Positions 52,679-64,000 of a stretch of 64,000 bases of DNA are shown here, in pieces. Both the position numbers and the translations under genes were made by a program. The notes beneath the pieces are model-generated. The model saw nothing but the letters and a program-made list of their open reading frames with translations, was not told the DNA's origin and did not search any database. Positions within the stretch are counted from its first letter, which is position 1, and each line of letters opens with the position of its first letter. The DNA is from Spartinivicinus marinus (GTDB lineage: Bacteria; Pseudomonadota; Gammaproteobacteria; Pseudomonadales; Zooshikellaceae): the NCBI RefSeq assembly GCF_026309355.1, contig NZ_JAPJZK010000001.1, forward strand, positions 5,600,501-5,664,500. The letters run 5' to 3'.

Positions 52679-53125
52679 GTGAAAATACCATTTAGACAGC
52701 AACCACTAGTGCTTTTGATTGAAGATAGTATGCATGACTTTGCGGCTATTCAACGAGCCTTTAGGAAGGTAGGGTTTGAGGGGCATGTTGAGCATTGTCA
52801 AAAAGGGGAAACGGCTCTGGATTACTTGGAGCAAGCAAAGGCAGAAAAAGAAACAAAAAATAGCAGCCTACCTTGTTTTATTTTGTTGGATTTAAACTTA
52901 CCAGGTATTGATGGTATCCAAGTCTTGCAATCAATAAAAACAGATAATACGCTCAAGCAGATACCTATCATCGTTTTTACCACTTCTCAGAACCCTCAAG
53001 ATATAAAAATCTGTTATCAGTCAGGAGTAAACTCCTATGTAACCAAGCCTATGGACTTAGCCGCATTCAATCATGCTATTGCTACAATATCGGAGTATTG
53101 GTTGAAAACGGTTTATTTACCTTAA
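52679..53125 (+). CDS. CheY-like response regulator (Rcp1 type)
   Basis: A 148-residue single-domain receiver: VLLIEDSMHDFAAIQRAFRK, phospho-Asp in CFILLDLNLPGIDGIQVLQS, Thr in IIVFTTSQNPQD and Lys in SYVTKPMDLAAF. It resembles Rcp1, the partner of phytochrome-like kinases that have the ASHDLKEPLR H-box. The next gene encodes such a kinase. It starts at GTG 52679 with a weak ribosome binding site. Confidence 0.88.
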   Translation: MKIPFRQQPLVLLIEDSMHDFAAIQRAFRKVGFEGHVEHCQKGETALDYLEQAKAEKETKNSSLPCFILLDLNLPGIDGIQVLQSIKTDNTLKQIPIIVFTTSQNPQDIKICYQSGVNSYVTKPMDLAAFNHAIATISEYWLKTVYLP

Positions 53126-53178
53126 GCAATAGTTGTTATAAAGCGAATTAAATAACTGTCAAATATATTGACCTTATA

Positions 53179-55512
53179 ATGTATCTACAAACAATAAAAG
53201 AATACTTCTTAAAAATATTTGTATTGGCTGTTAGTTATGCGGTTATAGGTAAATTATCACTCTTATTAGCTATCCCCCCAGGATTTGCTTCCCCTGTCTG
53301 GCCACCTGCTGGTGTGGCACTTGGGTTAGTGTTGTTATGGGGCTATCGATATTGGCCTGGTATATTGCTAGGTTCGATGACAATCAATATTTGGGTTTCT
53401 CAAGAGGCATACACCAATATCATTGCTTTAGCCAATGGTCTTGGTATAGCGCTAGGTGCATCACTGCAAGCGGTTATATCGAAGTGGTTGATTGAAAAAG
53501 TCACCCAGCCACCCTGGGAGCTAGAAGAAGTCAAACAAATAACAGCGATTGTCGTAGTTGGTGGGCCTATTTGTTGTATTATTTCTGCAACTGTTGGAAA
53601 CACGGTGTTATTGCTGAATGGGGTAATCCCATCTGACGCTTGGTTACCGGCCTGGTTAACCTGGTGGATAGGCGATAGTATCGGTGTTATGGCTTGTGCT
53701 CCAGTATTGTTAGCATTATTTACCGGCTCTATTACGGTCGTACGAAAAACTATTGTGGCTACACCATTAATGGCCCTTTTAATCACAGTCATTTATTTAT
53801 TCTTCTCTGCTCAACGTTGGGAACAGGAACAACAAAATAGTCAAGCCATTAAAGAAATGGAGCGATCAGTAGAATATATGCAAGACTACCTTGATGGCTA
53901 TCTGATATCGTTATTTGCGTTAGAGCGTTTCTTTCAGTCATCTCAGGTGATTAGTCGTGATAATTTTAAACGTTTTGCAGAAGGCTTCATCAATAAATAC
54001 CCAGGCATTCAAGCATTGGAATGGGTGCCCATCGTGCCAGCAAGTCAAAGAGAGCAACTTATTAAATCTGCCCATGCTGGAGGATTGAAAAAATTTGATA
54101 TTGTTGAATATAATCCACGCTTAAAAAAAATGGAAAAAGCAAAGCCCCGTGATACTTACTATCCGGTTTTTTATATTGAACCTATGGCTACCAATGAGGC
54201 AGCTTTAGGTTATGATATAGGATCAAATCACCGTCGTTTAAAAGCTATCGAAAAAGCACTAACAACACTTCAGCCGGTTGCTACTGAAAAGATTACGCTG
54301 GTTCAGACTGCTGAGCCTGAGTCGGCTTTTTTGGTATTAATGCCAGTCAATAAAAATAATACAGTGTTTGGCTTTGTCTTAGGCGTATTTAAAATCAAAC
54401 CACTAATGGAAAAACTCCAGTCTCATCTGGGTAATTTAAACGCTGTTTTTAGTGTTTATGATAAAAATAATGAGGTGATATATGAATCAGGACCAATGCT
54501 AAAACAACAAGAGAAGCTTAAACCGCTGATAAATTTATTTAATTTAAGTCAAATACTGTCAATAGCTGATAGAGAGTGGCGCTTAGATATTCAATTTAAA
54601 GCTAATATTAATTTAGAACATAGATTCTGGTCAATATGGCTACTTATTGTCGGCGGATTTTTTATTATCGGTATGTTGAGTTATGTCCTATTAATTATTA
54701 CGGGGCAAGCAGAGTCTACTGAACGAAAAATTCAACGGCGTACAGTTGAACTGGAGGCTAGTAAACAGGCACTCAGTGAACAAGCGCAAGCACTATCTAA
54801 ATCAAATCAGGCATTAGAAGAATTTGCTTATATTGCATCGCATGACTTAAAGGAGCCATTACGAGGAGTCAGTAATTATTGTCAGTTTATTAATGATGAT
54901 TATAAAGATAAGCTGGATCGACAAGGTGGTGAAATGCTGGATAATATTCGCAAATTAACCAGAAAAATGGAGTGTTTTATTAATGATTTGCTCAAGTATT
55001 CAAGAGTAGATCATATTGAAGGGGTGCGAATTGAAACTAACTTAATGGAGCTGTTATCTGAAGTCAAAGAAGGCTTATTTCACTTAATTCAAAAGTTTAA
55101 TGCAGATATATCAATAAGAGAGCCTCTACCTATTATATACTGTAATAAAACCAAAATTGAAGAGTTATTTACTAACTTAATTACCAATGCGATTAAATAT
55201 AATAATAGTGAACAGATAAAGATAGGAATTGGATGTGATTTTAGCAAAATACCTGCTGTTTTTTATGTTGAGGATAATGGTATTGGTATTCCTGAGCATT
55301 TACAACATAAAGTATTTAAAATTTTTCAACGTTTGCATACAGAAGATGAATATGGCGGTGGAACAGGTGCTGGATTGAGTATTGTTAAAAAAATAATAGA
55401 AGGCTATCGTGGCTCTATATGGGTTAAATCAAAATCAGGCACCGGTAGTACTTTTTATTTTACGTTACCATTAGCAATGTCGAAAGCAGTTGACAAGGCA
55501 GTTAATAGTTGA
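53179..55512 (+). CDS. MASE1-CHASE sensor histidine kinase
   Basis: A 777-residue inner-membrane kinase. Residues ~10-200 are a MASE1 multi-helix sensor (IPPGFASPVWPPAGVALGLV). A CHASE domain follows (~235-400: FFQSSQVISRDNFKRFAEGF, GIQALEWVPIVPASQREQ), then a membrane helix (~490-510), a coiled coil, the H-box in EEFAYIASHDLKEPLRGVSN (His near 554) and HATPase motifs VEDNGIGIP and GGGTGAGLSIVKKI. It probably phosphorylates the preceding CheY-like protein. Ligand unknown. Confidence 0.92.
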   Translation: MYLQTIKEYFLKIFVLAVSYAVIGKLSLLLAIPPGFASPVWPPAGVALGLVLLWGYRYWPGILLGSMTINIWVSQEAYTNIIALANGLGIALGASLQAVISKWLIEKVTQPPWELEEVKQITAIVVVGGPICCIISATVGNTVLLLNGVIPSDAWLPAWLTWWIGDSIGVMACAPVLLALFTGSITVVRKTIVATPLMALLITVIYLFFSAQRWEQEQQNSQAIKEMERSVEYMQDYLDGYLISLFALERFFQSSQVISRDNFKRFAEGFINKYPGIQALEWVPIVPASQREQLIKSAHAGGLKKFDIVEYNPRLKKMEKAKPRDTYYPVFYIEPMATNEAALGYDIGSNHRRLKAIEKALTTLQPVATEKITLVQTAEPESAFLVLMPVNKNNTVFGFVLGVFKIKPLMEKLQSHLGNLNAVFSVYDKNNEVIYESGPMLKQQEKLKPLINLFNLSQILSIADREWRLDIQFKANINLEHRFWSIWLLIVGGFFIIGMLSYVLLIITGQAESTERKIQRRTVELEASKQALSEQAQALSKSNQALEEFAYIASHDLKEPLRGVSNYCQFINDDYKDKLDRQGGEMLDNIRKLTRKMECFINDLLKYSRVDHIEGVRIETNLMELLSEVKEGLFHLIQKFNADISIREPLPIIYCNKTKIEELFTNLITNAIKYNNSEQIKIGIGCDFSKIPAVFYVEDNGIGIPEHLQHKVFKIFQRLHTEDEYGGGTGAGLSIVKKIIEGYRGSIWVKSKSGTGSTFYFTLPLAMSKAVDKAVNS

Positions 55513-55523
55513 GCAGTAGCGAC

Positions 55524-56738
55524 TCAGACCTCATCATCATCTTCTTTTGCTTCTTCCAATGGCTCCAGTGTCAGGTTGGAGATTATTGAGGAAGCCTCTT
55601 GTTTTTCTTCTGTCGGGGTTGATTTAGCCTTGTTAGACTGCACTCGCTTCAATATCGTTTGATCGACACTTTCTGTTGACTTAGATTCTAAATTAACACG
55701 TAATCTAAGGTTATTTTTTGAGTCAGCGTTTTTTAATGCTTCTTCTAATGATATCTTGTTTTCTTTGTAAAGATTATATAGTGCGGTGTCAAAGGTTTGC
55801 ATTCCTTGTGCTTCAGACTTCATCATCACTTCTTTAATTTCATCGACTTTACCTTGTTTGATTAAATCGCATAAGCGTGGTGTGCCTAACAGGATTTCAA
55901 TAGCCGCGCAACGTTTGTTATCAATAGTGGGTATTAACCGCTGAGAGATGATACCTCGTAAATTTAAGGACAAATCTAAAAAAAGCTGTTTATGGCGCTC
56001 TTCCGGAAAAAAATTAATGATTCGATCTAAGGCTTGGTTTGCATTATTTGCATGCAAAGTGGAAATACATAAGTGACCCGTTTCAGCAAAGGTTATGGCT
56101 TGTTCCATTTGTTCTTGGCTGCGTATTTCACCAATTAAAATAACATCAGGCGCCTGTCTTAAGGTGTTTTCCAGTGCATCGTCATAGCAGTTAGTGTCGA
56201 CACCTACTTCCCGCTGGTTTACGATAGACTGTTTGTGTCGGTGAACAAATTCAACTGGATCTTCAATGGTTATGATATGGCCAGCTGAGTGACTATTTCG
56301 ATAATCGATGAGGGCAGCAAGTGATGTTGATTTGCCAGATCCTGTACCGCCAACAAATAAAATCAACCCTCGTTTTTGCATTATAAGCTTAGGGAGAATA
56401 TCGGGCAGGCCTAAATCCTTATAATGAGGGATTTCTGTTTTAATCGCGCGAACAACCATGGATACTTGGTTTCTTTGTTTAAAGATGTTCACTCTAAAAC
56501 GACCGATGCCTTGCTCTGCTATTGCGAGGTTCATTTCAGGCTTATGTTCAAAAGCAACCCGTTGCTCTTCATCCATAATGGTATAAGCAATTTCTTCTAC
56601 TCTACCGGGAGGTAATGGTCTATCTGCAATTGGTTGTAAGTGACCATGAATTTTAGCACTAGGTGGTGCACCTGTTGTTAAGAACAGGTCTGAACCATCT
56701 TGTTCAGCAAAATAGCGAAGGTAATCAAGCCATTCCAT
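55524..56738 (-). CDS. pilU: Type IV pilus twitching ATPase PilU
   Basis: A 404-residue PilT/PilU-type hexameric ATPase that aids pilus retraction. DGSDLFLTTGAPPSAKIHGH is the N-terminal domain, Walker A is FVGGTGSGKSTSLAALIDYR, the Asp box and Walker B are TIEDPVEFVHRHK and APDVILIGEIRSQEQ. The C-terminal extension beyond about residue 340 is charged and acidic (LEEAKEDDDEV at the end), as in PilU more than PilT. ATG 56738 follows CAGG at 8 bases and matches the normal PilU start, so the long upstream frame to 56915 is rejected. pilT is not adjacent. Confidence 0.9.
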   Translation of the reverse strand: MEWLDYLRYFAEQDGSDLFLTTGAPPSAKIHGHLQPIADRPLPPGRVEEIAYTIMDEEQRVAFEHKPEMNLAIAEQGIGRFRVNIFKQRNQVSMVVRAIKTEIPHYKDLGLPDILPKLIMQKRGLILFVGGTGSGKSTSLAALIDYRNSHSAGHIITIEDPVEFVHRHKQSIVNQREVGVDTNCYDDALENTLRQAPDVILIGEIRSQEQMEQAITFAETGHLCISTLHANNANQALDRIINFFPEERHKQLFLDLSLNLRGIISQRLIPTIDNKRCAAIEILLGTPRLCDLIKQGKVDEIKEVMMKSEAQGMQTFDTALYNLYKENKISLEEALKNADSKNNLRLRVNLESKSTESVDQTILKRVQSNKAKSTPTEEKQEASSIISNLTLEPLEEAKEDDDEV

Positions 56739-57096
56739 TGCAAATACCTGACTGGTCATTAAATTGTCATAATTGAAGTGCGCTAGTTGAACTCTTTGAG
56801 AGTATAGCAAGTAGTTTGTGTTGTGAGTGGTTTTGTAGTCTATTACAATACCGGTAAGACTTAAAATAAATAGGGAACTATTCATTACTGATCTAGTCTC
56901 ATTTGTCACTAGCAAATAGTATTCGACTCATATAGTATTTATTCAAGCCACTAAAATAGATTCCACTTGACTGTCTGTCATTGTAGGTAGTTGCTAGAGG
57001 AATAAATGAAAACGCGTGGGTTGAGAATGTTAACTGAGGGTAAAGCGGGTAAAGAATAATAATCTATTTAAGAGAACGTTATGGAACTATATAGAA
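56739..57096. other. Intergenic region upstream of pilU and the Cys/His-rich gene
   Basis: About 360 bases with divergent promoters. The pilU frame stays open upstream to 56915 without a convincing start. No repeat or hairpin was recognised. Confidence 0.35.
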
Positions 57097-57501
57097 ATGA
57101 TTAATAAACTTATAAAACACTTGTTTTGTATAATCTTTCTATTGGCTGGATCTACAGGATTTTCAGCCGTTGAAAATCCTGTAGGCGTCAGTAACATTCA
57201 TACGGCTAGTAAATTGATTACCAATGTAGTACTTTTTAACGATAAAACCAGTAAAGTAACATCTGAATGTAAAATCAAACTTCACTATATCCATGATCAA
57301 TCTGTTCATACTTCTCTGGAACATAGCTTAACCGAAAGTGCAGGTGGAGACTGCCATTGCTGCTTTGGGAACTGTTCTTCACTAGCTAATTCATCCTGCA
57401 ATCACTTACTATTAACACCATTCACTATTCATTATCCTGCTATAAAACTAGCTGAGTTAAAGCTGTTTATTGACCCTCATTTTCGCCCTCCTATAGTCTA
57501 A
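57097..57501 (+). CDS. Secreted small Cys/His-rich protein, function unknown
   Basis: A 134-residue protein with a signal peptide (IKHLFCIIFLLAGSTGFSAV). The mature part has many His and a cysteine cluster GGDCHCCFGNCSSLANSSCN, and ends with HFRPPIV. The layout (leader, central Cys/His cluster, RPP end) resembles small DUF2946/metal-related periplasmic proteins, but I cannot assign it firmly. Metal binding is inference. It stands upstream of the DUF1015 gene on the same strand, 220 bases away. Confidence 0.6.
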   Translation: MINKLIKHLFCIIFLLAGSTGFSAVENPVGVSNIHTASKLITNVVLFNDKTSKVTSECKIKLHYIHDQSVHTSLEHSLTESAGGDCHCCFGNCSSLANSSCNHLLLTPFTIHYPAIKLAELKLFIDPHFRPPIV

Positions 57502-57724
57502 TACTCATACGTTGTCAGCCTATTTTGTTTAAAACATTATAACCAAGTAATGGTTTACAAGCGCTATCGCTAATGCCATTAGTTTAGACTGTGTATATTT
57601 TATTGCTGGCAATTAATCTTTCGAAAAAACATATCCTTTACGTCTAATAGCGAAAGGAAAAACCTGCCTTTATCAAATGTAAATGCAGAGGATATCTATT
57701 GTCTGGCTGCAAAGGAATAGTCAA

Positions 57725-58738
57725 ATGAGTCTTATAGAACAAAAAACTAAAGTGATTGATTGTAATGCATTTAATAGTCTTCTATTTCAAGATTGTAATG
57801 AGGGCCTTTTTATATACCATATTAGTGGTTTGTTTAATGATGAACCTCATGAAGTTATTGGTGTTTTAAGCCAATATAGAAATAAAGGGAAATCAATGGT
57901 TTATCCTCATGAAGAGATTGATTCTCAACGGCTGGCCGCTCTTCAGCAGGAAATAGTACAACAGCAGGGCATGAGCACCCCCTGTTACTTAGTGACAAAT
58001 AGCAAATTTTATCCTCGGTTTACATTATCAAGATTAATACAGTCAGCACAGCCAATCATTAGTTTCAAAGATAAATCATTCACTCACTCAATTTTTTATA
58101 TTCATGAAGCTATCGACTGTATAGAGGTTATGTTAGCAATCAATCGCATCGAACATTTTCTTATTGCTGATGGCCACCACCGATTTGCAGCCTATCAACA
58201 ACAAACCAGTATTGATACTAGTAGCATTGTGTCACTCCCCGTATTTATTACACAGACATCTGAAACCAAAGTTAAGAGTTTTGGCCTAGTCGGTTGGCTT
58301 AATGAACACTTTAACTGGCAACAGCTTGTTGATCATTGTAGACAGCTAGGATTAAAGACCTGTAAAGAAGAACAGGCTGATTTCTTGATTCACTACCAAA
58401 ATCAAAAGCTGGTGGTTGCTTTTGATTTGCTAATTGGTAGAAAAGGGTTTAACCAGCCAGGTTATCATCATAACTTCATATTAGAAAATCTCAGTAGTTT
58501 AAATGGGGTAGAGACTATTTCAAGCGAGGCATTAGCCTTTCAGCATAAAAACCACTTATCTGATATCAACCTAAGCTCTCATTACTTATTCATACAAACC
58601 CGTTCACCCAGTGTTGAATCGATTTACCAAAGTGCCTTACAAGGCCATTTGCTTCCTAAGAAGTCCACATGTTTTCTATTTAAGCCTCTAGAAGGTGTTA
58701 TTGATTTTTTACAAAATGAAATAAAAGTTGCTTCATAA
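57725..58738 (+). CDS. DUF1015-family protein, possible L-serine kinase (SerK/SbnI-like)
   Basis: A 337-residue protein. The diagnostic DUF1015 motif is HFLIADGHHRFAAYQQ. Near the N-terminus it has GVLSQYRNKGKSMVYPHEEI, the usual 'H-E' region of the family. Known members with this fold make O-phospho-L-serine (archaeal SerK, staphylococcal SbnI). The partner gene just downstream is an SbnA/cysteine-synthase-like enzyme, which would use that product. It is shorter than typical DUF1015 proteins (~400 residues). ATG 57725 follows AAGGAA; the frame extends to 57683 without support. Confidence 0.78.
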   Translation: MSLIEQKTKVIDCNAFNSLLFQDCNEGLFIYHISGLFNDEPHEVIGVLSQYRNKGKSMVYPHEEIDSQRLAALQQEIVQQQGMSTPCYLVTNSKFYPRFTLSRLIQSAQPIISFKDKSFTHSIFYIHEAIDCIEVMLAINRIEHFLIADGHHRFAAYQQQTSIDTSSIVSLPVFITQTSETKVKSFGLVGWLNEHFNWQQLVDHCRQLGLKTCKEEQADFLIHYQNQKLVVAFDLLIGRKGFNQPGYHHNFILENLSSLNGVETISSEALAFQHKNHLSDINLSSHYLFIQTRSPSVESIYQSALQGHLLPKKSTCFLFKPLEGVIDFLQNEIKVAS

Positions 58739-58789
58739 CAGCCTGTATTTTCTTGGTTTTTAATTGTAGATTTTATTTAGGAGAAAAAA

Positions 58790-59734
58790 ATGCTTGATTC
58801 CATTTTAGATACTATTGGCAATACTCATCTTGTTCAGCTTCCAGTGCTATCATCAACAAGTCGTAAGATAAACGTGTATGGTAAGATTGAGTATTTCAAT
58901 CCGGGCTTCAGTATTAAGGATAGAGCTGCGCTGAAAATGATAGAATCTCTTGAAAAAACACATGATATTAAACCAGGTGACACGATTGTTGAGTCAACCT
59001 CTGGTAATACTGGCCATGCGTTAGCAATGATATGTGCAAAAAAAGGATATAATTTGGTATGTATTGTAGACCCTAAAACACCAAAACAAAATATTTTGAT
59101 TTATAAAGCATTTGGCGCAAATGTATTAGTGGTAGAAGAAATGGATGAAAATGGCTCTTATCAAAAAGTCAGAATTAAAACAGCAAAAGAGTTAAGTAAA
59201 AAAAATGGATGGATTAATTTAGATCAATATTCCAACCCTGGGTGTTGGATGGCTAATTATGAACATACAGGAAAAGAAATATATCAAGATTTAAATGGAA
59301 AAATAGATGTGCTGGTCGCATGTGTAAGTACTGGAGGACACTTATCAGGAATTGCGAAATTTTTGATAGAGCATTTAACAAAGAAGCCTTTAATAGTTGC
59401 TGTTGAGCCTGTTGGATCAGTCATTTTTGGTGGCAAGCCGAAGCCTTTTAAAATAAATGGTGCAGGCTTAAGTTTTGTCCCTAAAAACTATTTCTCAGAG
59501 TACGTGGATATGGAGTTAAAGTGTAGTGACCACAATGCATTCTCGATGTGCCGATATATTGCCAAACACGAAGGAATTCTCTTGGGTGGGTCTTCTGGTA
59601 GTGTGTTGTCAGTTATCTCATCATTGATAAACAAAGGGGGGATAGTCGAGGGAAGTAATGTGGTTGGTGTTTTACCAGATTCTGGGTTGAAATACATTGA
59701 TACGATTTATAATGATGGAACATATGATGATTAA
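58790..59734 (+). CDS. SbnA/cysteine synthase-like PLP enzyme
   Basis: A 314-residue fold-type II PLP enzyme. The lysine is in NPGFSIKDRAALKMIE (near residue 43), the substrate loop STSGNTGHALAM and the phosphate loop ACVSTGGHLSGIAKF are present, and C-terminal GSSGSVLSV completes the site. The opening DSILDTIGNTHLVQLPVLSS and FNPGFSIKDR are closer to SbnA, which joins O-phosphoserine and glutamate, than to CysK, but OPS sulfhydrylase is also possible. TAGGAG precedes the ATG. No SbnB-type dehydrogenase is adjacent. Confidence 0.82.
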   Translation: MLDSILDTIGNTHLVQLPVLSSTSRKINVYGKIEYFNPGFSIKDRAALKMIESLEKTHDIKPGDTIVESTSGNTGHALAMICAKKGYNLVCIVDPKTPKQNILIYKAFGANVLVVEEMDENGSYQKVRIKTAKELSKKNGWINLDQYSNPGCWMANYEHTGKEIYQDLNGKIDVLVACVSTGGHLSGIAKFLIEHLTKKPLIVAVEPVGSVIFGGKPKPFKINGAGLSFVPKNYFSEYVDMELKCSDHNAFSMCRYIAKHEGILLGGSSGSVLSVISSLINKGGIVEGSNVVGVLPDSGLKYIDTIYNDGTYDD

Positions 59735-60668
59735 ATTAATAACTAAATCTATTATATCAATGGTTATTGTAGTCTTTCCTGTATTGCTTATTGTTAATAT
59801 TGCTGTATTTCATGGCTTTGATCGTTTACTGATAACAGCTGTACAACCAATTATGTCTATCTTAGACTTGCCAGAAGAGTTTAGTATTGTTTGGTTGGCT
59901 GCAATATTGACTGGTGTGTATGGAGGAGTAGCTACATTTTTTACCATTGCCTCTGAATCCTATGGTTATCGGCTAATAGACATAAATGTATTATCAATAT
60001 TAATACTTTTGGCTCATGCACTTCCGGTAGAATCTCGGGTGAGTTCGTTAGTGGGGGTAGGATTTGTTAAGGCAACTATTTTTCGAATTGTTAACTCAAT
60101 TGTATGTGCATTGTTATTGATGCTATTTTGTAATTACTTTGAGCTTCTTCAAAGTAATGTAAGCTTTAGTAGTGCATTAATTACACCGAAGTCCTTTGCT
60201 AGTTATTTTGATGTGATTTGGCAGTCAATTGCGATAACGGTGAAAATGTGTGTGATTATTGTTTTATTGTTTTTATTAATTGAGCTGCTTAAAAAGTTAT
60301 CACTGATTAACTTAATAGAAAAGCTGCTGTTGCCTTTGGTTAGTCTGCTTCGGCTTGATATAAAACTATCACACCCTTTATTGATTGGTATATTACTGGG
60401 TATATCTTATGGCGGAGTATTATTAAAAGAGTCACTAGGAGAGCTATCTGTTATTTATAGTGAAAGTATCAAAAAAGCAATATACTTTATGAATTTATCA
60501 CACTCGCTAATAGAGGATACTTTATTAGTATTAATGATTAATGCCAATATTGTCATAGTTGTAATTTACAGATTGGCTTACTCAATAATAGTGATAAGAC
60601 TGATGGCGTTGTTTCTCTATGTTAAAAGCCAACTAATCAATAGAACTGGAGTAACAAAGGAAAGTTAG
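59724..60668 (+). CDS. Gate-domain (nucleoside-recognition-like) membrane protein
   Basis: A 314-residue hydrophobic protein with about eight membrane segments. The two halves each have an internally similar Gate-type layout (SIVWLAAILTGVYGGVATFF; HPLLIGILLGISYGGVLLKE), as in the nucleoside recognition domain family seen in transporters and sporulation membrane proteins. It starts within the end of the PLP enzyme gene (11-base overlap), with GGA before ATG 59724, so it is translationally coupled. An exporter or permease for the pathway product is the natural guess, but that is inference. Confidence 0.7.
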   Translation: MMIKLITKSIISMVIVVFPVLLIVNIAVFHGFDRLLITAVQPIMSILDLPEEFSIVWLAAILTGVYGGVATFFTIASESYGYRLIDINVLSILILLAHALPVESRVSSLVGVGFVKATIFRIVNSIVCALLLMLFCNYFELLQSNVSFSSALITPKSFASYFDVIWQSIAITVKMCVIIVLLFLLIELLKKLSLINLIEKLLLPLVSLLRLDIKLSHPLLIGILLGISYGGVLLKESLGELSVIYSESIKKAIYFMNLSHSLIEDTLLVLMINANIVIVVIYRLAYSIIVIRLMALFLYVKSQLINRTGVTKES

Positions 60669-60938
60669 TCTCTTAGGCATCAATACCCGGTTACGAATGG
60701 TTCGTGCGACCAAGCCCTGTTCTTCGCAGTGGTGATGAACAGTCCAGACTGCTAAAAAGGAAGTTAAGCACTGGGCTGTTAACATGGGCAGTATATGGTG
60801 TTTCACATCGATAACCCCGTTAATACTGTGTTCATGTTGATCAGTTGGGTATCTTGTGATTATAAGTAACTTTAAATCACCTACACTGTCATTACAGTAG
60901 TCACAAGAAAAATAGCATCACCTTCAAGTGATACCAGT
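60669..60938. other. Intergenic region with an uncertain reverse reading frame
   Basis: About 270 bases. On the minus strand a frame of about 95 codons without ATG runs through it (DVKHHILPMLTAQCLTSFLA, then VWTVHHHCEEQGLVARTIRN) and ends inside the preceding gene. It reads like a possible transposase relic, but I cannot identify it. The promoter of the following gene should be here. Confidence 0.3.
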
Positions 60939-63900
60939 ATGCCAAAAAGCCGTTTGCACCTGGGAATTCGCGGAAAACTTATTTCGATTTTCAGCCTGAT
61001 TAAAGTCCTTCCGCTGTTGTTACTGGCTTGGATTGCCTGGGACCATAGCGTTAATCTTGGTCATAAGGTGGTTGATGAAAGCCAGCAAATGGCTGACAGA
61101 ATGTTGCATACAGTAGCCACGGTAGGGGAAGTGACCACCGCTCAGTCAGTGAAAGCCTTGGATGCACAAGCGCAGGCAGCGATTGAGCGCTTAACGGTAG
61201 ATACTGCTGAGCAGGTGGCACAGTTTCTTTATGAGCGGGATAAAGATTTACTATTGTTAGCTGGGCAGCCGCCTGATCCTGATACTTATCAACAGTTCAT
61301 TGCGCATCGAACAGCCGTAGTGACGCTACATCAGCCCTGGCAAATGGATGATGAGGGGAAGCAATGGCAGCCTGTTCGGCCAGTGAGTATTAAATACCAG
61401 CAAGTAACTCCTCGTGTAGAAGACAATCGTACCGCCTTTCATTATCGTCCACCGGATCATCTAGGTATTAAAGAAAACAGGCCGCTTTATCGGGAGATCA
61501 GTTTTTTTGACGTAAATGGTCAGCAACAGATTCGCATTTTGTCAGACCCAAACCAAGCTGCTCCGTTATTGGATGTCTCTCGCGCTGAAAATACTTGGTA
61601 TAAGGCAGAGCGTTATTTTGCCAAGCTGAACTCATTACAAAAAGGCGATATTTATGTATCCGATGTGATTGGTGCTTATGTGCCATCGCCTATTATTGGT
61701 CCTTTTACTCGGGCAAAGGCAAAGCAAAAAGGCATTTCTTTTTTACCCGAAAATGCCGGGTATGCAGGTAAAGAAAACCCAGTAGGGAAACGATTTGAGG
61801 GAATTGTACGGTGGATAACCCCTGTTTTTCAGGCGGGTGAAAAAATTGGGTATTTATCATTGGCATTAGATCATACCCATATTATGGAGTTTACTGACCA
61901 CTTGGTGCCGACTCAACAGCGTTTTACGCCTATTTCTGATGCCAGCTCAGGAAATTATGCATTTATGTGGGACTATTTAGGGCGGAATATTTCTCATCCG
62001 CGCGATTATTTTATTGTGGGATACGATCCAACCACCGGTGAGCAGGTGCCTACCTGGTTGGATCAACACACTTGGCAACAGTGGCAAGATAGCGGTTTAT
62101 CTTTTCAGCAATTTATTACCCAGCAATCACCGTATAAAGCGCAGTCATTAAAGCGAAAACCTGCTTTGACGCAAGTAGGTAAAGGACAAATAGCCTTGGA
62201 TTGTCGCTACTTACATTTTGCGCCTCAATGTTCAGGTTGGTGGAATCTTACTGAAGAAGGTGGGGCAGGCTCGTTTGTAATTTTTTGGAGTGGGCTCTGG
62301 AAAATTTCGACAGCTGCAGTAATTCCTTATTATACCGGGCGCTATGCAAACAGTGCTCGTGGTTTTGGCTTTGTCACCATTGGCGCTAATATTGATCAGT
62401 TTCATGCGGCGGCAATGTCCTCAAAAGATGAAATGATGGGGATGATTCAACAAGCTAACCAACAACTGGAAAATAAACGTAACTCTTTAATTGCTGGGAT
62501 TAACACCAGGCTGCAGAAAATTACTGTGCAGTTAACGGCTTCAACGGCTGTGATGGTGTTGTTGGTCATTTTAATTGCTATTTGGATAGCTTCTTATCTC
62601 ACCAATCGACTGAAAGATATTATCACTGGAATGCAAACCTTTACTTCAGGTGATTTGACCCATCGACTGGCCACAACTACTGAAGATGAGGTAGGTGAGT
62701 TGATTGATACTTTTAATGAACTGGCGAATACCATTGAGCAAAATGTAACGAGTTTAAATGCTGAAATCCATCAGCGTAAAACCGCTGAAACCAAGCTGGC
62801 ACAAGCAAAGAATGAGCTGGAGCATCGGGTTGAAGAGCGGACCTTAGAGCTTCGAATGAGTAATGAACAACTGAAAAAAGAAAATAAAGAGCGACAAAAA
62901 GCGCAACGACAAATTGAGCATTTAGCCCGTTATGATCACCTGACTGGCTTGGCTAATCGGGTGCTGTTTGGAGAGCGTTTAAAGCAAGCTATACAAATGT
63001 CGTCAGTGACTAATGAAGCGTTAGCTTTATTATTTATTGATTTAGATGGCTTTAAAGAAGTGAATGATTCATTAGGACACGAAGTCGGTGATTTATTACT
63101 GAAACATGTCGCCCGCTGTTTAGAAAGTGCTGTGCGAGAAGGGGATACCGTAGCTCGGCTTGGAGGGGATGAATTTGCCGTCATTGCAGGGGGAGTCGCC
63201 AGCCATGATGTGCTAGTGGAAGTTGCAGAGCGACTATTGAAAAAACTGCTGGCTAAAGCTTGTCTCGATGGTCATTGTTTACGGGCGGGTGGTAGCATCG
63301 GCATTGCTTGCTATCCTGCTGATGCTAAAAGTCAGGATAAACTAATTCATTTTGCTGATATGGCGATGTATCAGGCAAAACATAGTGGTGGAGGGAATTG
63401 TTATCGGTTCTTTACTCCTGCAATGCATGAGCGGGTGCTACACCATCAAAAAATTGAGGCTGAGTTGCATCAGGCAATTCAACAAAATGAACTCAGAGTG
63501 TATTACCAACCAAAAATTAATTTACAAACGGATGAAATCTTTGGCATGGAAGCACTGGTTCGCTGGCAGCACCCTGAGCGAGGCTTATTACCCCCTTCGG
63601 AATTTATCGAAATTGCTGAACATACTGGGCAAATTATTGAGCTGGGGGCTTGGGTGCTTGCAGAGGCATGTCGTCAAACCAACCACTGGCATCAACAAGG
63701 AATTACCAGCTTGCAGGTGTCAGTGAATGTATCAGGTTATCAAATTGATCAGCGCTTTGTGGAGCATGTAAACGAGGTGTTAACCGCTACTCAGCTAAAC
63801 CCACAACAGTTAGAGTTGGAACTAACTGAATCGATTTTAATGAATGATACCCCTGCGACTAATGTAATTTTGAAGCAATTGAGGGATATAGGTGTTGCTA

Positions 63901-64000
63901 TTTCTATTGATGACTTTGGTACTGGCTACTCATCTTTTGAGCGAATCAGAGCCTTACATTTAGATGTGATTAAAGTAGACAGAAGTTTTATTAAAGGGCT
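60939..64000 (+). CDS. Membrane GGDEF-EAL c-di-GMP protein, 3' end beyond window
   Basis: About 1020 codons are visible. A membrane helix (residues ~20-40: LIKVLPLLLLAWIAWD) is followed by a very large periplasmic region (~45-530), probably Cache-like, a second helix (VMVLLVILIAIWIASYL, ~540), HAMP, a coiled coil, a GGDEF domain with intact VARLGGDEFAVIAGG (~742), and an EAL domain with EIFGMEALVRWQHPERGLLP, then SIDDFGTGYSSFERIRALHL and VIKVDRSFIKG at the edge. Both motifs look active, so it may make or break c-di-GMP. ATG 60939 has a weak ribosome binding site but begins the helix region. Confidence 0.9.
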   Translation, partial: MPKSRLHLGIRGKLISIFSLIKVLPLLLLAWIAWDHSVNLGHKVVDESQQMADRMLHTVATVGEVTTAQSVKALDAQAQAAIERLTVDTAEQVAQFLYERDKDLLLLAGQPPDPDTYQQFIAHRTAVVTLHQPWQMDDEGKQWQPVRPVSIKYQQVTPRVEDNRTAFHYRPPDHLGIKENRPLYREISFFDVNGQQQIRILSDPNQAAPLLDVSRAENTWYKAERYFAKLNSLQKGDIYVSDVIGAYVPSPIIGPFTRAKAKQKGISFLPENAGYAGKENPVGKRFEGIVRWITPVFQAGEKIGYLSLALDHTHIMEFTDHLVPTQQRFTPISDASSGNYAFMWDYLGRNISHPRDYFIVGYDPTTGEQVPTWLDQHTWQQWQDSGLSFQQFITQQSPYKAQSLKRKPALTQVGKGQIALDCRYLHFAPQCSGWWNLTEEGGAGSFVIFWSGLWKISTAAVIPYYTGRYANSARGFGFVTIGANIDQFHAAAMSSKDEMMGMIQQANQQLENKRNSLIAGINTRLQKITVQLTASTAVMVLLVILIAIWIASYLTNRLKDIITGMQTFTSGDLTHRLATTTEDEVGELIDTFNELANTIEQNVTSLNAEIHQRKTAETKLAQAKNELEHRVEERTLELRMSNEQLKKENKERQKAQRQIEHLARYDHLTGLANRVLFGERLKQAIQMSSVTNEALALLFIDLDGFKEVNDSLGHEVGDLLLKHVARCLESAVREGDTVARLGGDEFAVIAGGVASHDVLVEVAERLLKKLLAKACLDGHCLRAGGSIGIACYPADAKSQDKLIHFADMAMYQAKHSGGGNCYRFFTPAMHERVLHHQKIEAELHQAIQQNELRVYYQPKINLQTDEIFGMEALVRWQHPERGLLPPSEFIEIAEHTGQIIELGAWVLAEACRQTNHWHQQGITSLQVSVNVSGYQIDQRFVEHVNEVLTATQLNPQQLELELTESILMNDTPATNVILKQLRDIGVAISIDDFGTGYSSFERIRALHLDVIKVDRSFIKG

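Follow-up and report, generated by a model that had tools for sequence, protein, structure and literature searches.

Which product four adjoining genes in the genome of Spartinivicinus marinus might make and release is the question raised by the locus analyzed here, in which a small, predicted secreted protein rich in cysteine and histidine (the Cys/His protein) is followed by a DUF1015 protein, an SbnA-like pyridoxal phosphate (PLP) enzyme and a Gate-domain membrane protein. The locus lies in a 64,000-nucleotide stretch (G000:C1:5600501-5664500, here termed the window) within a genome of 6.88 Mb. We give even chances to the reading that these genes form a minimal O-phosphoserine (OPS) pathway that lacks SbnB, in which a beta-substituted alanine would be made and then exported unprocessed. 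The unit comprises the following genes:

57097..57501, plus strand: Cys/His-rich small secreted protein (predicted), 134 residues, first gene of the unit
57725..58738, plus strand: divergent DUF1015 protein (PF06245), candidate free-serine kinase and thus candidate OPS supplier
58790..59734, plus strand: SbnA-like PLP enzyme (best match TIGR03945), predicted OPS-dependent beta-replacement
59724..60668, plus strand: Gate-domain (PF07670) membrane protein, predicted exporter (alternative start 59715)

Counted from the ATG at 57725, the DUF1015 open reading frame (ORF) encodes 337 residues, with a further in-frame ATG at 57683, and is separated by 51 bases from the PLP-enzyme ORF, which encodes 314. 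Started at ATG 59724, the Gate ORF overlaps the latter by 11 bases, ATG 59715 and TTG 59697 being also in frame. An earlier, sequence-only reading of this DNA had described three same-strand genes with this gap and, for ATG 59724, this overlap, and its coordinates are right; the family names that it assigned (DUF1015, PALP and Gate) also hold, all three passing the Pfam cut-offs, Gate barely.

The order Cys/His protein, DUF1015 protein, SbnA-like PLP enzyme and membrane exporter is kept in all five genomes of the family set (the window genome, G001, G002, Zooshikella ganghwensis and Z. harenae, the last two being G003 and G004). One clear DUF1015 homologue is present in each of the other four, with identities to the window protein of 75, 46, 36 and 37%; a second match in G002 (E 5e-4, inside a 1637-residue frame) was set aside. 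The fourth gene encodes a Gate protein in the window genome only, and an ANKH-related exporter of 436-456 residues in G001-G004. Hence, of the co-occurring trio proposed by the sequence-only reading, the DUF1015/SbnA-like pairing recurs in 5/5 family genomes, whereas the exact trio with Gate is confined to the window genome.

Comparison with G001 locates the difference. The DUF1015 proteins of the two genomes are the 75% identical pair, whereas their PLP enzymes share 36% (36-38% over the four relatives). A gapped DNA alignment spans the DUF1015 gene and runs into the PLP gene, to 59599, the genes there being distantly homologous, and close identity is back at 60685, 17 bases past the Gate stop, within one further feature of the window:

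60669..60938, minus strand: desaturase-like frame, a cut remnant at the right edge of the differing segment, from the comparison with G001

The minus-strand reading (60685-60900), which we take to be that of a desaturase, reaches an HHLFP motif in G001 and stops early in the window. The right end of the differing piece thus falls within this remnant, which extends further in G001 than in the window. In the larger of two trees, moreover, the relatives' PLP enzymes form a 100/100 clade with those of the class-wide genome G538, Vibrio and cyanobacteria, and this clade excludes the window enzyme, which argues for replacement and not for divergence of one gene. The enzyme-exporter pair is thus best read as replaced in place behind a conserved DUF1015 gene, and the window arrangement is most simply the newer, because G001-G004 all share the other one. 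Among the 29 window frames of at least 300 codons, the Gate gene ranks lowest in G+C content (0.32) and the PLP gene third from the bottom (0.36); the DUF1015 gene is equally low (0.36), so that composition by itself is no proof of a foreign origin of the differing piece.

The constant part of the unit extends to its first gene, for a Cys/His homologue lies immediately upstream of DUF1015 in 5/5 family genomes, which supports an earlier suggestion that this upstream protein may be linked to the trio. The genes further upstream in Zooshikella, identified by reading as those for exodeoxyribonuclease, IMP dehydrogenase and GMP synthase, are unlike those of the window, and because they differ between the two genera the Cys/His gene can be assigned to the unit and not to the region. 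The window protein has a single hydrophobic segment, which is N-terminal (residues 5-23). The five versions have in common a D-C-H-x-C-x-G-N-C core and four histidines, the invariant residues being H63, H66, H71, H76, D85, C86, H87, C89 and C93 together with an FRPPI stretch. Searches of Pfam and NCBIfam at E 1 gave no match for the window protein, and chance-level Pfam matches for the other four.

The DUF1015 protein scores 36.7 bits on PF06245 (gathering cut-off 25.8), with only profile positions 78-220 of 325 covered. It matches the SerK equivalog model only weakly, with 19.6 bits (E 4e-4; cut-off 380), and at E 1 no match to the SbnI model is listed. In the six sequences compared (the family proteins and that of G420, discussed below), PHE 61-63, ADGHHR 148-153, T315, F317, K320 and P321 are invariant; the DGHHR motif of the SerK/SbnI serine kinases is hence present in 6/6, and the glutamate of PHE 61-63 may be the counterpart of their N-terminal catalytic glutamate. 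The C-terminal end T-x-F-x-x-K-P is common to the family proteins and the G420 protein; SerK and SbnI have a KTT end, which is visible in the SbnI-like proteins examined. A profile comparison with SbnI-like proteins aligned 34 columns in the DGHHR region (probability 76.9, E 2.1e-5), and a search of solved structures returned only 1vk1 (E 0.72), in an aligned stretch that again includes DGHHR. A structure model built from three sequences had a mean predicted local distance difference test (pLDDT) score of 39.6, too poor for a fold search or for checking the glutamate, and the catalytic residues were compared by motif.

Judged by its distribution, the family-type DUF1015 protein is a narrow, divergent lineage. 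Its profile matches six of 293 genomes in the order, five of which are the family itself and the sixth of which is weak; in the class, a DUF1015 match is present in 121 of 369 genomes, that of the window among them, mostly in frames of at least 400 residues. A contig profile search, which may omit records near the window's own genome, matched 78 stretches, two of which encode a relative, both from Zooshikella, and plasmid records gave no match. DUF1015 (printed DU1015) is also named among fusions in 50 chosen ParB-CTPase-fold proteins, in the accessible part of PMC12704722.

The best evidence here for short DUF1015 proteins as OPS suppliers comes from one case, G420, whose sbnA-sbnB-DUF1015 operon supports this role because its DUF1015 gene stands where that for SbnI would. 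The SbnA (392.0 bits) and SbnB (370.9 bits) of this operon are both above their cut-offs, and the DUF1015 protein is short (346 residues), its gene overlapping sbnB by 4 bases. Apart from the window, G420 is the genome whose surroundings were read among the 121 of the class that carry DUF1015, having been chosen for its short frame and low score. At this locus (2236-7618 of L123, G420:C17) the operon is followed by an FMN hydroxyacid-dehydrogenase-like gene and by a 4-hydroxyphenylpyruvate dioxygenase gene (over cut-off), and the whole is perhaps a cluster for a diaminopropionate-containing product in which DUF1015 replaces SbnI.

The PLP enzyme scores 225.6 bits on PALP (cut-off 35) and is 41% identical to Staphylococcus aureus SbnA, the K47 of which corresponds to its PLP lysine, K43. 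The selectivity of SbnA for OPS is attributed to R132, Y152 and S185 in the accessible part of PMC12414870, and all three are kept in the window enzyme as R128, Y147 and S180. All 26 SbnA-like rows, the window enzyme among them, keep R132, which is absent from all 13 CysK/cystathionine beta-synthase (CBS)-like rows (and from all 26 before thinning); Y152 and S185 are less exclusive, 3/13 CysK/CBS-like rows carrying both. At position 152, H is found in ANKH-linked enzymes (12/12), C in the enzyme linked to a major facilitator superfamily (MFS) exporter, and H in the G538 enzyme, which has G at 185. A small tree places the window enzyme in an 11-row SbnA-like clade at 100/99, with a long-branch warning. 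Position 78 of SbnA was dropped as a divider of SbnB-linked from exporter-linked enzymes, the SbnA rows of Bacillus badius and Pseudonocardia having F like the exporter-linked ones.

The Gate protein, with about seven hydrophobic segments, scores 30.5 bits on PF07670, barely above the gathering cut-off of 29.6, in two stretches; a search of solved structures with its profile gave no match. There are two Gate matches in the window genome and one in each other family genome. An Lrp/AsnC gene, a usual neighbor of amino-acid exporters, is found near 15 of 29 order-wide Gate loci. The paralogue in the window genome (C1:6251146) likewise has an Lrp/AsnC gene on one side, with speA on the other; a dehydrogenase gene, nspC and an agmatinase gene follow (4273-11793 of L054, C1:6250272-6257792), a polyamine neighborhood that may hint at the cargo of this Gate family.

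Exporters of three kinds were found after SbnA-like enzymes: Gate in the window, ANKH-related proteins, and an MFS protein in G459. The ANKH-related pairs occur in four family genomes, on one Vibrio plasmid and on seven cyanobacterial plasmids, the relatives' PLP enzyme having 55-63% identical plasmid homologues in Vibrio europaeus and cyanobacteria. The plasmid search matched 138 records; among the best 30, 12 were at least 55% identical, and eight of these (Vibrio and seven cyanobacterial) were read, three of the remaining four looking like near-copies of those and one lying at a record end. In 8/8 records read, the gene that follows encodes a homologue of the Zooshikellaceae exporter. Six of the seven cyanobacterial exporters pass the ANKH Pfam cut-off; those of Leptolyngbya, Vibrio and the four family genomes do not, and they are named here after ANKH because they are homologous to those that pass. 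No conserved small ORF was found beside the plasmid pairs. The ANKH-type enzyme was not found at E 1e-70 in 339 sampled Pseudomonadota, a sample that excludes the carriers G001-G004 and for which at most five candidates per genome were scored among the matches shown, so that this result indicates rarity at most.

Upstream of the cyanobacterial pairs, the next annotated gene is divergent and belongs to a two-component pair in five of seven records; in a sixth it encodes a heavy-metal-responsive regulator. Genes for heavy-metal or cation efflux or for metal regulation are present in the stretches read of four of the seven (Oscillatoria, Tolypothrix, Nostoc C052 and N. carneum), and a CbtB gene lies near the Anabaena pair; no metal-named genes were seen in the stretches read of Leptolyngbya and N. 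linckia, and none for metal efflux in that of Vibrio. Because the plasmids are partly related and the counts have no background control, this proximity is a lead only.

A class-wide search with the window enzyme yielded 23 further loci, at three of which the ORFs were read. At the best match (G459; 620-5093 of L122, G459:C37) the SbnA-like gene overlaps an MFS gene that is followed by a TonB receptor gene. The MFS protein scores 247.6 against a cut-off of 235 for CntE, the staphylopine-family exporter, and the receptor 201.1, under the siderophore-receptor cut-off of 223.5; since the contig begins about 600 bases upstream, further genes may precede these. The locus is a very short candidate metallophore locus. 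At the other two (L104, from G538, and L100) no exporter directly adjoins the SbnA-like gene. G538 encodes a relative of the ANKH-linked enzyme (5825-6919 of L121, G538:C26; 54% identical), for which no neighboring exporter was found. A separate plasmid operon (L142, L146, L147 and L148) combines genes for an SbnA-like PLP enzyme and for proteins resembling 4-hydroxyphenylacetate-3-hydroxylase and Xaa-Pro peptidase with an SbnI-like gene in three of the four cases and with pyrE and/or pyrD (by annotation, in L147 by reading); its product is possibly a pyrimidine-containing beta-substituted alanine.

The pathway that we propose would begin with the phosphorylation of free serine to OPS by the DUF1015 protein. 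The SbnA-like enzyme would then eliminate phosphate from OPS, leaving a PLP-bound aminoacrylate. Addition of a nucleophile, for which an amino acid's amino group is the likeliest candidate, would give a beta-substituted alanine of the N-(1-amino-1-carboxyl-2-ethyl)-glutamic acid (ACEGA) type. Without SbnB there would be no cleavage to diaminopropionate, and the SbnA product or an analogue would be final. The Gate protein, whose gene overlaps that of the enzyme, would release the product as it is made, and the secreted Cys/His protein would contribute to the same end from outside the cytoplasm, plausibly by binding metal. In the relatives, the shared upstream part would supply another SbnA-like enzyme and an ANKH-related exporter, product and exporter changing together. 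The kinase activity, the second substrate and the direction of transport are all predictions.

A role of the unit in metal handling appears possible, though we lean against it. On chemical grounds, ACEGA-like compounds, with two amines and three carboxylates, should bind metals; export of a polycarboxylate would fit the presence in the relatives of the citrate-exporting ANKH family (mammalian ANKH is reported, in the accessible part of PMC7371198, to export citrate and ATP), and the secreted Cys/His protein would likewise fit a metal role. A slightly more doubtful extension is that of a single-enzyme metallophore system spanning Zooshikellaceae, a Vibrio, cyanobacterial plasmids and another gammaproteobacterium, in which an unprocessed SbnA-type condensation product would be the exported ligand, unrelated exporters (Gate, ANKH-like and CntE-like) would be modular, DUF1015 proteins would be a new class of OPS-supplying kinases, and the Cys/His protein would be the partner outside the cell.

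Several observations weigh against the pathway or its metal role. Neither a TonB receptor nor a metal regulator is among the ORFs listed for 53000-64000, and no Fur- or Zur-like box common to the upstream regions was found by eye. The accessible part of PMC4751278 treats RppA, which adjoins several of the cyanobacterial pairs, in connection with photosynthesis genes, and the word "nickel" is absent from the main text of that paper. The flanks of the 23 class-wide PLP loci hold no DUF1015, Gate, ANKH-like, SbnI or SbnB homologue. The Gate-PLP pairing is a single case, no PLP enzyme being found within about 1.5 kb of any of 38 other Gate loci (29 order-wide and nine class-wide), and the Lrp gene is missing from the flanks of 14 of the 29 and eight of the nine. 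G420 and G459 are single cases as well. Finally, although no NCBIfam model matches the PLP enzyme better than SbnA (TIGR03945), the score of 295.6 bits is under the cut-off of 349.95; four SbnB- or siderophore-linked SbnAs score 384.8-435.5 on this model, and the exporter-linked enzymes tested are also under the cut-off (300.2, 305.7, 307.1 and 330.5). The window enzyme is the sole one among 26 SbnA-like rows with T at SbnA position 78, as found in 12/13 CysK/CBS-like rows, and the larger tree places it weakly beside CysK/CBS (84/36), an unsure placement.

The last points bear on the alternative that survives best, a rather unlikely one, in which the PLP enzyme would be an O-phosphoserine sulfhydrylase and cysteine, or a simple S-substituted cysteine, would be exported by Gate, for example against thiol or metal stress. 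SerK supplies such a cysteine route in Thermococcus, according to the accessible part of PMC5120207, and besides the T at position 78 the enzyme scores 250.1 bits on the cysKM model, under its cut-off of 344.15. However, placement within five CysK/CysM rows (one of which was checked by model: cysK 455.6 against 350.95) or within eight CBS-like rows was rejected (approximately unbiased test, p-AU 0.0041 and 0.0042, respectively), so that the grouping within plain CysK/CysM that the sequence-only reading had named as telling against its proposal did not occur. The 13 CysK/CBS-like rows of the larger tree, which omitted thirteen such rows of the small one for redundancy or long branches, form a 100/100 clade excluding the window enzyme. 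For a clade of the window enzyme and seven SbnAs p-AU was 0.4, and for one with the exporter-linked rows it was 0.19, so that neither grouping is established or rejected. The window enzyme retains Y152 and S185, in place of which F and G stand in the five CysK/CysM rows, and the nearest of three other PLP-enzyme matches in the window genome (26-32% identical) has CysK-type residues. By these alignments, the window enzyme is one with an SbnA-like OPS site and a lineage of its own, and is not SbnA by the curated cut-off.

Only a little less probable is that the unit makes some other beta-substituted alanine, secreted to act as an antimetabolite or signal, against which the exporter would protect its producer, the swap of the pair then being chemical diversification. 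Enzyme and exporter do differ jointly behind a constant upstream part, and related SbnA-like genes lie in other small operons, such as that with SbnI-like and pyrE genes; nevertheless, a role in metal handling better suits both the CntE-linked homologue and the conservation of the secreted Cys/His protein, and no immunity gene was noticed, no search having been aimed at one. A chance neighborhood, in which Gate came with the PLP gene and is unrelated in function, or the DUF1015 protein is no kinase, seems improbable: the linkage of Gate and PLP genes is known from one genome, the SerK match is weak and the SbnI-like profile match is limited to the 34 columns around DGHHR, but the genes share a strand and an 11-base overlap, and they occupy the place of the relatives' own PLP-exporter pair. 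A unit that yields L-2,3-diaminopropionate by way of an SbnB-like enzyme from another locus is very unlikely: in its favor, the window genome offers one remote SbnB-family match (86.3 bits against 326.9); against it, no SbnB over the cut-off exists in any of three genomes of its genus, and Z. ganghwensis and Z. harenae (L125, L013) have a separate SbnI-like/SbnA/SbnB set in addition to the unit. That no SbnB passes the cut-off in the window genome supports the absence of the SbnB step that had been claimed from the sequence. The SbnA of the separate Zooshikella set has G at the site of S185.

If the minimal OPS pathway is true, the DUF1015 lineage gains a function, SbnA-type chemistry is used without SbnB, and enzyme-exporter pairs are interchangeable behind one OPS supply; should its product be a metal ligand, the route to this metallophore would be a very short one, present on cyanobacterial plasmids as well. 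Relatives carrying the same unit with a different pair should ease discovery of the product by comparison of culture fluids. The parts belong to known families. None of the titles and abstract openings searched describes their combination, in which a predicted DUF1015 kinase and a secreted Cys/His protein accompany interchangeable exporters and an SbnA chemistry that lacks SbnB, and none describes an SbnA-like/ANKH or SbnA-like/Gate pair.

Among known systems, the SbnI-SbnA-SbnB module of staphyloferrin B resembles the unit in joining a predicted serine kinase with DGHHR to an OPS-type PLP enzyme in which R132, Y152 and S185 are kept; the window differs in having DUF1015 for SbnI, an overlapping exporter gene, no SbnB over the cut-off and a PLP enzyme below that for SbnA. 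Thermococcus SerK and its OPS-using CysK likewise lead from serine through OPS to a beta-replacement product (PMC5120207, accessible part), but the window's kinase candidate is far below the SerK cut-off, its PLP enzyme falls outside CysK/CysM, and an exporter gene is coupled to it. Opine-type metallophores such as staphylopine are approached by the G459 locus, with its SbnA-like gene, CntE-family exporter and TonB receptor, whereas the window exporter is of another family. Such systems usually include a nicotianamine-like synthase and an opine dehydrogenase, neither of which was noticed among the ORFs of the G459 locus. The PLP-ANKH pairs of Zooshikellaceae, Vibrio europaeus and cyanobacterial plasmids share with the window an SbnA-like enzyme followed by a membrane protein, and differ from it in their ANKH-related exporter, in the H at SbnA position 152 of all 12 enzymes, and in the 36-38% identity of the family enzymes to that of the window.

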